The notes below the pieces were generated by a model. The model had not been told where the DNA came from, did not search any database, and was given only the letters and a program-made list of their open reading frames with translations. This document shows, in pieces, positions 5,208-16,323 of a stretch of 24,876 nucleotides of DNA. The stretch lies in IMG/VR virus record IMGVR_UViG_3300037041_000545, positions 1 to 24,876 of that record; one strand, 5' to 3'. Position 1 is the stretch's first letter. Every line of letters begins with the position of its first letter. The stretch comes from a virus. The translations under genes were made by a program, and so were the position numbers.

Positions 5208-5259
5208 TACTAATCCAAGAGGATTCTAATAATTTCCTTTTTGTCTCTGCATTTGACAT
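5167..5259 (-). CDS. Possible 30-aa ORF before the primase
   Basis: From ATG 5259-5257 the frame encodes MSNAETKRKLLESSWISS, then AAFTKVQGDFSF and TAA, overlapping the putative GTG start of the primase in another frame. The sequence is polar and helix-like and could be a tiny DNA-binding protein or a leader peptide coupling translation to the primase. Against it, a TAnnTTTG box at 5261-5268 would start transcripts downstream of this ATG. A longer frame back to 5427 crosses the repeat-rich origin candidate and is not believed. Confidence 0.25.
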   Translation of the reverse strand: MSNAETKRKLLESSWISSAAFTKVQGDFSF

Positions 5260-6909: not shown

Positions 6910-7106
6910 TTTGCTGAGTGTTTAATTATCAATTCTCCATATCCATCCAATACCTTTGATTGAACGTGCTCAGGGATGTCCTGAATGACTTTATCCTCTT
7001 GGATATAGTTTGGTCTCGTTGAGATAAAATAAAGCATTACAACCAAGAATAATGCAACTGGAATAAATGCATCTAAAGCATCCTTTTGTTTTTGTGTAGT
7101 TTTCAT
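6906..7106 (-). CDS. Small membrane protein, 66 aa
   Basis: A basic N-terminus (MKTTQKQKD) is followed by one hydrophobic segment, residues about 13-28 (AFIPVALFLVVMLYFI), and then a soluble tail of about 38 residues with DIPEHVQSKVLDGYGELII. It is likely a single-pass inner membrane protein, tail orientation uncertain. The start and stop overlap the neighbouring genes. It is early in the leftward operon and unrelated to the lysis genes at 8751-10224; the function is unknown. Confidence 0.6.
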   Translation of the reverse strand: MKTTQKQKDALDAFIPVALFLVVMLYFISTRPNYIQEDKVIQDIPEHVQSKVLDGYGELIIKHSAK

Positions 7107-7270
7107 TTTAATCCAAGTTTTTGCACTAAGTTATGTACCACTGCCCAACGTGCAACGGCAGCATCTGTAATTGGGTCATTCATTCCTAATCTATCAATGC
7201 ATTCTTGCAGGTTTTCCCATAGTAACTTTTCTGATTGAATAATAGTGTTAATCATTTCTTGTTTTTTCAT
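7103..7270 (-). CDS. Small helical hypothetical protein, about 55 aa
   Basis: The longest frame opens at ATG 7336, but its first 22 residues (KKFCSCETYYDIRSI...) look non-coding. The ATG at 7270 gives MKKQEMINTIIQSEKLLWEN, then LQECIDRLGMNDPITDAAVA and RWAVVHNLVQKLGLK, a clean two-helix protein. An A-rich leader (TTTAAAAAACACC) precedes this ATG. Similar short proteins with an EN-helix and a D-x-T-x-R-W-x-V pattern are, as I recall, common in Bacteroidota mobile DNA, without known function. It is the first gene after the large control region, so it would be the first product of the early leftward transcript. Confidence 0.6.
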   Translation of the reverse strand: MKKQEMINTIIQSEKLLWENLQECIDRLGMNDPITDAAVARWAVVHNLVQKLGLK

Positions 7271-7397
7271 AGCGGTGTTTTTTAAATTTATACTGCGAAT
7301 ATCGTAATAAGTTTCACAACTGCAAAACTTTTTCAACTTTTTTTTCAGTTTTGAACAAAATAAATTGTGAATGCCTTATTTTAATAGGTTTAAAACG

Positions 7398-7412
7398 TAC
7401 CCGATAGGGTGC
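7398..7412. repeat. Operator-like repeat TACCCGATAGGGTGC, copy 1
   Basis: The 15-mer TACCCGATAGGGTGC occurs here and at 7439-7453, 41 bp apart, with a weaker third match (TACCTGATTGCGTAT) at 7489-7503. Its core ACCC-GATA-GGGT is a dyad, as expected for a dimeric repressor site. It lies in the untranslated leader of the early operon, downstream of the predicted promoter. Confidence 0.6.
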
Positions 7413-7438
7413 TCATGTATAGGAATTTTGATTAATTC

Positions 7439-7453
7439 TACCCGATAGGGTGC
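7439..7453. repeat. Operator-like repeat TACCCGATAGGGTGC, copy 2
   Basis: Exact second copy of the 15-mer at 7398-7412. It is preceded by ATTAATTC. The degenerate third copy at 7489-7503 is preceded by ATTAATTA, so these two share a longer context than the first. Confidence 0.6.
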
Positions 7454-7615
7454 AAAAACATATAATGTAAAGGAAAAACAATTAATTATACCTGATTGCG
7501 TATATTTTTCGTATAAATGCGGATATATTCGTATATCAAAGTGTCTTAAAAAGCACATTATAATATGTTTTTGACCTTTATATGACCAGTTATGGATAGA
7601 ATAATGTGCAAACTC

Positions 7616-7627
7616 ACATTATAATGT
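7616..7627. promoter_or_regulatory. Perfect 12-bp palindrome ACATTATAATGT
   Basis: ACATTATAATGT is its own reverse complement. A one-mismatch copy, ACATTATAATAT, lies at 7555-7566, both preceded by C. The palindrome sits just downstream of the predicted leftward -7 box, where a repressor would block early transcription. Confidence 0.45.
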
Positions 7628-7679
7628 CACAAAACAAAGGTAAAATGTGACGTTTTTTGTCACAAAACAAAGGTAAAAT
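7625..7679. repeat. Two perfect 22-bp direct repeats
   Basis: A 22-bp sequence (beginning TGTCACAAAACAAAGG, ending TAAAAT) occurs at 7625-7646 and 7658-7679, start-to-start distance 33 bp. Each copy contains a minus-strand TACCTTTG box. The spacing places the TTTG of the right copy in the -33 position of the left copy. The unit also provides half-sites of the TGTGAC/GTCACA dyad (7646-7651 and 7659-7664). Confidence 0.85.
7635..7666 (-). promoter_or_regulatory. Leftward Bacteroidota-type promoter for the early operon
   Basis: Minus strand: -33 TTTG at 7666-7663, a 20-bp spacer, then -7 TACCTTTG at 7642-7635. This matches the Bacteroidota consensus TTTG/TTG, 17-23 bp, TAnnTTTG. Transcription would start near 7628 and run toward the gene at 7270. 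The promoter lies within the 22-bp repeats and next to GTGAC dyads, so it is probably repressible. Confidence 0.6.
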
Positions 7680-7755
7680 TCATGCAGATAATCGGATTTT
7701 TACCGATTAATGTCCAGTTTTTTGTCACATAAACTTGACAAATTTGTGACGGAAA

Positions 7756-7784
7756 TGTCGCAAATATCTACTAAATATGCGACA
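7756..7784. repeat. Inverted repeat TGTCGCA / TGCGACA
   Basis: TGTCGCA at 7756-7762 and TGCGACA at 7778-7784 form a perfect 7-bp dyad with a 15-bp A/T-rich spacer. The spacing, 22 bp start to start, is about two helical turns, which fits a protein binding site better than a terminator; no T-run follows on either strand. Confidence 0.45.
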
Positions 7785-7894
7785 CAATATCAGGCTATAC
7801 CTTGAAATAAAGATATGAAACATAAGGTTATACCCATAAAAAAAGAGGTACCGTTTCCGATACCCCCAATTACACACGCTAATGAGGTGCTAAG

Positions 7895-8770
7895 TTACAA
7901 AGGAAATTTGATTGAGTCGATACTTTTATGCATTTTTCTCACACCATTTTTGGTGAATTCTTTTGAATGTATTGTCAAGATTCTTCCTCCGGTTGGTTTG
8001 ATGGGTGCACCCCTTTCAACATGCCATCCTTTCGAGCCATCACCATACTCCTCTTTGTACGTTCCGGTGAGCATCAAGTGAATGTTCTTATGGTGATTAA
8101 CGTATCCATGCTTCGGTGAATGAACAACCGTATCCCTCACATCATTACGACACGCATTCTCATGGATGTGTCCCATGGTAAAGACATCAAAGTCCTCATA
8201 CATCTCCAATGACCTGGTCAAGTTGATTGCTCCCTTGGTAACGATACCACCACCACCTGATCCATGGAAGTATTTGACCTTTGATGTGGTCCAAGAGCTT
8301 GAGTTATATTTCTGATGGATGATCAACCAACCACCATATCCTCCGGTCATCACATTGCTGCCATTCTTATAATTAAGTAGGTCCACAAATCGCTGAAGGA
8401 TATCCGTTTCTTGATATTTGATGATGGCGGTTTCATGATTTCCGTACCCAACAACAGTGAGGATATGTGCGTATGGACTAAACCATTCAACTGCGGTTTC
8501 AACTATGCTATCCAGGTACTTGGCATTGTTGTGCTCAGGTCGGATGTCGGACTTGTTGCCTCGCTTATCACCTCTCCCTTGCATCAAGCAAAAGAAATCA
8601 CCATTCACCATGACCTTGATATCATTCTCAAGGCAATAGTCGAAATCTCGCTTTAATAAATCCCAATCACATTTCGGATTGTCCCAGTGAAGGTCAGACA
8701 TCATTGCAAGTTGTACATTCTCTCCATCAAGGTGAAGCTCGTGAATGTTTTTAGAGTGCTTTTTGAGCAT
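7895..8770 (-). CDS. Calcineurin-like metallophosphoesterase
   Basis: A 291-aa protein with the full set of metallophosphoesterase motifs: MSDLHWD (D26, H28), VNGDFF (G57, D58), YGNHET (N111, H112), YFHGSGGGG (H169) and MGHIHE (H201, H203). These bind the two metals that cleave phosphoester bonds, often in DNA or nucleotides. The first 20 residues form a short strand-like lead, and a Gly-rich loop follows H169. It overlaps the spanin-like gene by 20 bases and is the last gene of the late leftward unit, before the large control region. The substrate cannot be read from sequence; a nuclease or phosphatase role in DNA processing or host takeover is possible. Confidence 0.85.
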   Translation of the reverse strand: MLKKHSKNIHELHLDGENVQLAMMSDLHWDNPKCDWDLLKRDFDYCLENDIKVMVNGDFFCLMQGRGDKRGNKSDIRPEHNNAKYLDSIVETAVEWFSPYAHILTVVGYGNHETAIIKYQETDILQRFVDLLNYKNGSNVMTGGYGGWLIIHQKYNSSSWTTSKVKYFHGSGGGGIVTKGAINLTRSLEMYEDFDVFTMGHIHENACRNDVRDTVVHSPKHGYVNHHKNIHLMLTGTYKEEYGDGSKGWHVERGAPIKPTGGRILTIHSKEFTKNGVRKMHKSIDSIKFPL

Positions 8771-15083: not shown

Positions 15084-15638
15084 ATGATAAAAATATTTGA
15101 AAGGGAGATACCCAACAGAATGGATGAATTGACCATTGAACAATTCGAAAAAGTAACTGAAATCACCAACAACCAAGAGCTTGATAACATTGACCGTTAC
15201 ATCAAGATTTTTGAATACTTTGGTGTGAAGGAATCTGAATGGGATGACAATGATGTGGACCTATCCGAGTTTATTGACAAGGTGAAGGAATTCAACTCAA
15301 GTAAGTATGAGAAAAAGGATGCAGTTGAGTCAATCGAATTGGAAGGATATACCTACGAAGCGAAGATGAAGATATCAGTGAAGGATACCAAGATGATTGA
15401 GAAGATAATTGGTCGCAAGTCAAACAATTGGATTAGTGATTTGTTGGCATTAATGTTCAAACGAACTGACTTATCAAATACCGAGCATTATGCGGAAGCT
15501 CATCTCAAGTATAAATCAAAACTTTTCAAGCAATTGAAAGCTGAAATCGCAATCCCTTACTTAGTATTCGTAACCGAAAAAATCGCATCTCATGCTCAAT
15601 CTGAATCTCCCGAAGCAGTGGAGCCAAGTAACGATTGA
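15084..15638 (+). CDS. Tail assembly chaperone-like protein 1
   Basis: A 184-aa acidic, helical protein, one of only two plus-strand genes. It starts IKIFEREIPNRMDELTIEQF and contains a mid-helix region (KMKISVKDTKMIEKIIG), NNWISDLLALMF and LFKQLKAEIAIPYLVFVTEK. The head IP-x-x-M-D-E-L-TIEQF-x-x-V resembles LP-K-Q-W-S-Q-V-TIEQF-I-E-I in the next gene, so the two look like paralogs. Proteins of this type lie before the tape measure gene in Bacteroidota phages and, like lambda G/GT, coat the tape measure during tail assembly. Here they are antisense to the late operon. Its last 47 bases overlap the next gene in another frame. The chaperone role is inferred from context and pattern. Confidence 0.5.
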   Translation: MIKIFEREIPNRMDELTIEQFEKVTEITNNQELDNIDRYIKIFEYFGVKESEWDDNDVDLSEFIDKVKEFNSSKYEKKDAVESIELEGYTYEAKMKISVKDTKMIEKIIGRKSNNWISDLLALMFKRTDLSNTEHYAEAHLKYKSKLFKQLKAEIAIPYLVFVTEKIASHAQSESPEAVEPSND

Positions 15639-16323
15639 ACAATTCATTGAGATAAGGTCATTAAACCTTGAGGATGGTACACTGCAATACAATACCGATG
15701 TGCTCTCCATCCTCTCTGACCTTCCCATTGAGGAGCTTGATGAGATTGAATTGGATGAACTCCAGGAACTGACCAAGCAACTTGCATGGATGACCTCAGA
15801 ACCATCCAAGAGATATCAACATCAGCTCGGTGAATTGAAGCTCAAGCCATTTGTTGACATCACTCTCGGTGAATTCATTACATTGGAATCATTCGTCACT
15901 GATGACTACATCAAAAATCTGAGAAACATATGTGCGATACTCTACCGGAAGACATCCATTGATGAATGGGGGAATGTGATTACTGAGCCATATAAATTCA
16001 AATCAACTGAGAGAGTGCATCTATTCGATGACTATCCAATCACTTCAGTATTTGGATTGATACCTGAGTATCTTCAGTTTAGACAAAACTTCCTGGATAG
16101 CCATGCCAATCTGATGACTGAATCCTTTGAGGATGATGAAGTGATTGATGATCCTGAAGAATTGAAGGAACAAGAACAAGAAAAGAAAGCATCCAAGTGG
16201 GGATGGGAGCAGTTGATATGGACCATGTGTGATGGTGACCTTTCAAAGTTTGATGCAATCACCGATACAAAACTTGTATTGATATTCAACTTCCTTGCAA
16301 TGAGGAAGGAGCTTGAAATCTAA
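15592..16323 (+). CDS. Tail assembly chaperone-like protein 2
   Basis: A 243-aa protein from ATG 15592, starting LNLPKQWSQVTIEQFIEI. A middle region, LGEFITLESFVTDDYIKNL, is followed by acidic DDEVIDDPEELKEQEQEK and a C-terminal KWGWEQLIWTMCDGDLSKFD with LIFNFLAMRKELE. I recall the closing pattern (W-G-W, L/W-GD, F/D-x-IT, N-x-LA, KE-LE) from genes next to the tape measure in Bacteroidota phages. The frame opens only at 15574, after the TAA at 15571-15573, so it could be reached from the first gene by a +1 or -2 shift on the A6 run at 15577-15582, or start on its own. The stop overlaps that of the convergent 141-aa gene (16320-16323). Confidence 0.5.
   Translation: MLNLNLPKQWSQVTIEQFIEIRSLNLEDGTLQYNTDVLSILSDLPIEELDEIELDELQELTKQLAWMTSEPSKRYQHQLGELKLKPFVDITLGEFITLESFVTDDYIKNLRNICAILYRKTSIDEWGNVITEPYKFKSTERVHLFDDYPITSVFGLIPEYLQFRQNFLDSHANLMTESFEDDEVIDDPEELKEQEQEKKASKWGWEQLIWTMCDGDLSKFDAITDTKLVLIFNFLAMRKELEI

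Follow-up and report, generated by a model that had tools for sequence, protein, structure and literature searches.

The intergenic region at positions 7271-7894 (624 bp) of the virus record IMGVR_UViG_3300037041_000545, whose full length of 24,876 nucleotides was analyzed and is referred to below as the window, contains repeats that appear, with good support from comparative sequence analysis, to be copies of the operators of at least four kinds of Bacteroidota toxin-antitoxin (TA) systems. In Bacteroidota genomes, the matching operators sit directly upstream of autoregulated TA operons, and the window replicates the 33-, 61-, and 41-bp spacings of these host sites exactly. The explanation that we favor, with modest confidence, is that these copies form a modular array, located between the late terminator and the core early promoter, that would act as a set of antitoxin-binding decoys. 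The host TA systems in this comparison are those observed at the level of the phylum (Bacteroidota) and not in the actual host of the phage. Relatives of the window virus among named phages infect Bacteroidota, and the window replication protein has BT4734-like and PriCT domains; at the DNA level, no match, near or distant, was found in named phages.

The region is bounded by the stop (position 7895) of a 291-aa metallophosphoesterase-like gene (7895-8770) and the start (position 7270) of the 55-aa first early gene (7103-7270), both on the minus strand, which provide its upstream and downstream anchors, respectively. A gene covering the region, which a previous sequence-only reading of this DNA had named as a reason to abandon its interpretation, is not there: the ORFs within the gap are all short and unconserved, and the region is non-coding. 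Just past the 291-aa gene, a terminator scan identified an intrinsic terminator (GGGGGTATCGGAAACGGTACCTCTTTTTTT, 7838-7867, minus strand) that ends the late gene block lying upstream; its position is kept in all relatives. Next to the first early gene lies the core early promoter (TTTTG ... GATATTCG, 7296-7328, minus strand), with an A/T-rich stretch that reaches to position ∼7373. This promoter is found in nearly all of 31 relatives, many of which have the consensus -7 element TATCTTTG in place of the degenerate GATATTCG of the window, and it is kept even in relatives devoid of every module. Elsewhere in the window, two overlapping ORFs (184 and 243 aa, no Pfam match) occupy the plus strand at 15084-16323, the rest of the genome being coded on the minus strand.

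The repeats listed in the sequence-only reading are all present, far above chance in shuffled sequences: two exact 15-bp repeats (TACCCGATAGGGTGC, 7398-7412 and 7439-7453) with a weak third copy (7487-7502), two exact 22-bp direct repeats (7625-7646 and 7658-7679), the palindrome ACATTATAATGT (7616-7627), which recurs imperfectly at 7555, a TGTGAC/GTCACA dyad (found as GTGAC/GTCAC, 7646-7664), and a TGTCGCA/TGCGACA dyad (7756-7784). The present analysis adds a GGTATAACCT pair, a 30-bp TGTCAAGT/ACTGGACA site, ATACGnA iterons spaced at 10, 10, and 11 bp, and the late terminator. None of the three spaced pairs described below was matched in 3,000 shuffles that preserved dinucleotides, and the 29-bp dyad was matched in a single one. 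Within the 24.9-kb window, the operator motifs are confined to this gap.

Two sites on the minus strand, copy 1 (7437-7452, CACCCTATCGGGTA core) and copy 2 (7396-7411), are assigned to the HipB type I operator by their host match and their spacing of 41 bp; a weak third copy (TACGCAATCAGGTATA, 7487-7502, minus strand) is assigned by sequence. In 296 genomes, TACCnnATCGGGTATA occurs in 26 places and has a partner at 40-41 bp in 17 loci, 16 of which adjoin hipB, mostly followed by a HipA-N gene, which is the HipBST layout; none of the seven single copies located inside ORFs lies beside hipB. Host hipBST operons have the 41-bp spacing, as do most of the phage relatives in which the pair is present. 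Compared with the TACCnnnTCGGGTATA pair at 40-41 bp next to hipB, the window has both the motif and the 41-bp spacing, and no hipB gene. The HipB type II operator is likewise represented by two copies (strand unassigned), CACATTATAATGTC at 7615-7628 and, 61 bp away, CACATTATAATATG at 7554-7567, each with one mismatch to CACATTATAATGTG, and by a degenerate extra copy (TGCACATTATTCTATC, 7595-7610, minus strand); relatives have extra sites at 20 and 41 bp. Of seven places with CACATTATAATGTG in host genomes, four have a second-type hipB preceded by three copies, each exactly 61 bp from the next, with HipA-N and HipA-C genes downstream where the fetched stretch extends that far, so that the 61-bp spacing is the same in all four host hipBST operons and in the window. 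The query ACATATTATAATGTGC was overly strict (its one match was a terminator) and was replaced by CACATTATAATGTG; a loose TACC/GGGTA pair scan of viral contigs gave many chance matches and was excluded from the evidence.

The third spaced pair consists of two MmyA-type operators on the minus strand, copy 1 (GGGTATAACCT, 7825-7835) and copy 2 (AGGTATAGCCT, 7792-7802), located 33 bp apart. In host genomes, AGGTATAACCT copies at this spacing, two or three per locus, were found directly before the genes for mobile mystery proteins A and B (mmyA and mmyB, both assignments being above the NCBIfam cut-offs) in only three genomes (L605-L607). A GGTATAACCT search at 3 mismatches returned mostly noise, with similar counts in the control, and its tandem matches alone were kept; three of the four tandem loci fetched carry mmyA/mmyB, and one (L608) does not. 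The regular operators just before mmyA in L605-L607 lend support to autoregulation of this uncharacterized Fic-type pair.

The AbiE-type dyads, all assigned to the minus strand, belong to several arm classes. An AbiEi/DUF6088-type operator of class CG, TGTCGCA-N15-TGCGACA, is exact at 7756-7784. A dyad of class CA with one arm base off, CGTCACA-N15-TGTGACA (7723-7751), the intact counterpart of which (TGTCACA-N15-TGTGACA) is found in one relative (L082), is interleaved with a 30-bp operator of a second AbiEi subfamily (TGTCAAGT-N14-ACTGGACA, 7711-7740) that has hybrid arms and also occurs before host AbiEi-like genes. Another CA-class dyad, with a loop of 14, GTCACA-TTTTACCTTTGTTT-TGTGACA (7625-7651), includes the second 22-bp repeat and reads TGTnnCA-TATTTACCnTTGTTT-TGnnACA in relatives, with CA, AA, or CC arms; the upstream copy of the 22-bp repeat (7658-7679) corresponds in sequence to the right half of an AbiEi-type dyad with TACCTTTG. 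The TGTnnCA-N15-TGnnACA dyad was detected in 92 stretches of viral contigs, many of which have no homologue of the genes that flank the gap. The nn bases of one arm are complementary to those of the other in 27 of 36 distinct phage sequences, which fall into four classes, CG, CA, AA, and CC, and paired dyads cluster at loops of 14-16 bases, where a reversed-sequence control gave none. An RNA structure behind this covariation is disfavored, since identical dyads are DNA operators before DUF6088 genes, and there is no Rfam match. A dyad scan with one extra base, which retrieved mainly a related 30-bp dyad in other phages, served as comparison.

Searching 257 Gb of bacterial genomes for the dyad gave nine matches, eight of them in Bacteroidota; three are directly upstream of genes for DUF6088 proteins, which score as AbiEi in PADLOC, and one is just past an AbiEii toxin gene. 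DUF6088 genes were gathered from ∼500 Bacteroidota genomes, and the paired dyad was found upstream of 30 of the 36 strong non-redundant members that were kept, at a median distance of 48 bp from the start (mostly ∼45-50 bp). Position 39 of the DUF6088 recognition helix is Lys in 12 of 12 proteins with CC arms and Arg in 12 of 12 with AA or CA arms, and position 43 likewise tracks the arm class; this correlation, inflated as it is by shared ancestry, would be compatible with the protein reading the arms. In a weaker DUF6088 group, with proteins of ∼250 aa, a distinct 30-bp site, TGTC[CA]AGT-N14-ACT[TG]GACA, precedes 12 of 12 members, and in one locus (L416) an AbiEii toxin gene follows the ∼250-aa AbiEi-like gene that bears the site. 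Dyads were also recorded in other settings. A CG-class dyad in a Flavobacterium chromosome (L371, positions 5215-5243) lies ∼150 bp past a HipA-C gene instead of preceding a DUF6088 gene; a phage gene with a repressor annotation (158 aa, no Pfam match) has a 28-bp AbiEi-type dyad 12 bp ahead of it (L619, MW202828.1, positions 190-217); and a 30-bp TGTAACA...TGTTACA dyad lies inside a CDS common to several larger phages (L157, L159, L161, L164, L169-L171, L175, and L176), where it could be a coding chance or an in-gene decoy.

Scans with two proteins yielded 154 related viral loci, 46 of which, in addition to the window, have both flanking genes. The resulting 31 distinct intergenic sequences (window included) range from 217 to 1091 bp and contain shuffled modules: interchangeable blocks lie between the late terminator and the core early promoter, two elements that nearly all of them have, and phages with a 90-99% identical flanking protein differ widely in module content. 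In the comparison with relatives suggested by the sequence-only reading, the motif spacing turned out to be conserved, 25 pairs being spaced at 41 bp, 8 at 61 bp, and 11 at 33 bp. As some relatives (L097, L101, and L103) have few or no modules, the array is dispensable. In one relative (L098, 3549-4121, minus strand), the operator array is interrupted by a gene whose product joins a GIY-YIG domain to a HipB-like HTH. Three of the window's modules have no host match: an inverted repeat, TAATCGG-N7-CCGATTA (7689-7709, strand unassigned); an exchangeable insert, TGGTCATATAAAGGTCA (7572-7588, minus strand), in place of which some relatives have TGGCTTTATAAAGGCC or TGCATTTTGTGGAAAAATTCATGCA; and iterons of four ATACGnA-like units at 10, 10, and 11 bp (7497-7534, minus strand), which are common in relatives. 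For these iterons, host-genome matches were near nitrate reductase genes or absent, with no host counterpart, and a plasmid search came back empty; they could possibly be the operator of a further TA system or an origin element.

Clusters of such sites are also found in unrelated phages: in the vicinity of a dyad, the density of second-AbiEi sites is 26 times, and that of other dyads 10 times, the density elsewhere. One of these phages (L172) carries four different AbiEi-type operators within ∼160 bp. Tandem AbiEi-type operators of mixed arm classes, at steps of 32-34 bp and with no homologues of the flanking genes, were observed in L172, L158, and L174. A phmmer search of 488 viral fragments (partial loci) for DUF6088, AbiEii, HipS, and MmyA/B proteins found none, save a few generic HTH matches, and the window contains no complete TA system (toxin and antitoxin genes). 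The sites were not found in three cultured flavobacterial phage records (two of them partial).

The sequence-only reading had taken the layered motifs for a multi-input switch at one promoter. Its first part holds, as several distinct motifs do lie beside the early promoter, but a one-promoter switch is not the best reading, because the operators all lie upstream of the core early promoter, the nearest of them ending ∼70 bp away from it, the modules vary among close relatives, and one of them, the 22-bp module, is inverted in a sister clade. A version in which host antitoxins bound to the array would repress or tune the early promoter, allowing the phage to sense resident TA systems or their collapse, appears unlikely, but has several observations in its favor. 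The array is invariably beside the early promoter, the HipB type I pair is the module closest to it in most relatives, and AbiEi-type dyads in the window overlap a promoter-like sequence, TTTG-N20-TACCTTTG (7635-7666, minus strand), in which both Bacteroidota boxes (-33 TTTG and -7 TAnnTTTG) are exact, with no conservation as a promoter seen in relatives. The operators do not overlap the core promoter, however, module-free phages retain that same promoter, and neither the inverted module nor the similar clusters located elsewhere in unrelated phages would be expected of such a switch. The -7 box is also lost from most phage dyads: TAnnTTTG accompanies 14 of 16 host dyads versus 11 of 43 phage dyads (P = 4e-5, with relatedness and the retrieval pattern as caveats). 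The related idea that the 22-bp repeats are tandem early promoters was dropped as a general one, the module being inverted in the sister clade and its -7 box unconserved. Loss of the -7 box, the lack of matching TA genes in the viral fragments scanned, the distance to the core promoter, and the clustering in unrelated phages favor sites kept for binding rather than for transcription; a tuning role on the early promoter is possible.

It is improbable that the modules are captured fragments of TA promoters that form a spare or neutral mosaic, spread as phages and TA loci recombine. Module turnover is indeed strong, TA loci are mobile, and one relative has the extra GIY-YIG/HTH gene inside the region, but operator symmetry and spacing are retained although the promoter box has been lost, arm changes are compensated, and no TA coding remnants were found. 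A replication origin with iterons is still harder to reconcile with the data and seems very improbable: the A/T-rich sequence, the direct repeats, and the nearby DnaA-C-like and primase genes would suit an origin, to which the ATACGnA iterons alone could belong, but TA operators account for the repeats, close relatives differ in content, and there is no clear skew change. The proposal of the sequence-only reading that the 62-aa winged-helix and 134-aa DnaA-like proteins bind these motifs, as phage regulators encoded in the early operon immediately downstream, is the least probable, as the same sites with the same spacing precede unrelated host antitoxin genes and one phage combines four motif types and several arm classes, evidence that favors host TA antitoxins (AbiEi/DUF6088, the two HipB types, and MmyA) as the binders.

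If the array consists of decoys, host antitoxins of these families (AbiEi/DUF6088, second AbiEi, two HipB types, and MmyA) would bind the phage operator copies, and, as the copy number of phage DNA rises, the decoys would hold antitoxins or TA complexes. Such titration could disturb both TA autoregulation and the release of toxin during infection, and interfere with TA-based defense; possible outcomes include removal of the repressor, retention of toxin-antitoxin complexes, or increased antitoxin output. With modules swapped between phages, the array may follow the TA systems of the hosts met. Several observations count against decoys: some relatives do with few or no modules, three modules have no host match, one good promoter match remains among the sites (7635-7666), and, with 1-3 copies per genome, titration would take place only after replication and could either help or harm the phage.

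Titration has a precedent in multicopy replicons, where extra operator DNA titrates a repressor off its own promoter; there, as in the proposed decoys, extra operator copies remove the repressor. Phage phiTE makes pseudo-ToxI, an antitoxin RNA mimic active against one type III TA system, and thus also counters a TA system by imitating one of its parts, but it does so with RNA, whereas the window has DNA operator copies from several unrelated protein TA systems. We know of no natural multi-target operator array in phages, and phage-borne TA-operator arrays are not described in the open-access papers found (subscription literature and preprints being outside this coverage). In AbiE, an abortive-infection system, the antitoxin is a repressor of the operon that encodes it (PMC3985639, PMC7319586). 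As in that type IV system, the inverted-repeat operators of the AbiEi family overlap the TA promoter, and different AbiEi proteins would recognize different repeats; unlike there, where two 23-bp repeats govern the TA operon itself, the sites here are 29-30-bp dyads in a phage without TA genes (PMC7319586). In the Legionella HipBST system, HipB binds three evenly spaced operators and can keep HipT and HipS on DNA (PMC10653801). The inverted-repeat HipB sites described here are also evenly spaced, as are the copies in Bacteroidota hipBST operons, but their motifs and spacing (41 and 61 bp) differ, and the phage sites come without hipBST genes (PMC10653801).

The by-products of this analysis are the first candidate operator code for DUF6088 antitoxins and predicted operators that would control two hipBST types and the mobile mystery protein A/B pair. 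The array may also serve as a dictionary, in which modules without a host match predict operators and hence TA systems not yet recognized. If antitoxins bind these sites, phages would need no protein inhibitor to counter or read several unrelated TA systems, DNA being sufficient, and it would become directly testable whether chromosomal TA systems contribute to phage defense, a role that is debated. We suggest, tentatively and with somewhat more doubt than conviction, that exchangeable TA-operator arrays may be a general means by which Bacteroidota phages counter TA-based immunity, updated by recombination to match the antitoxins of their recent hosts.
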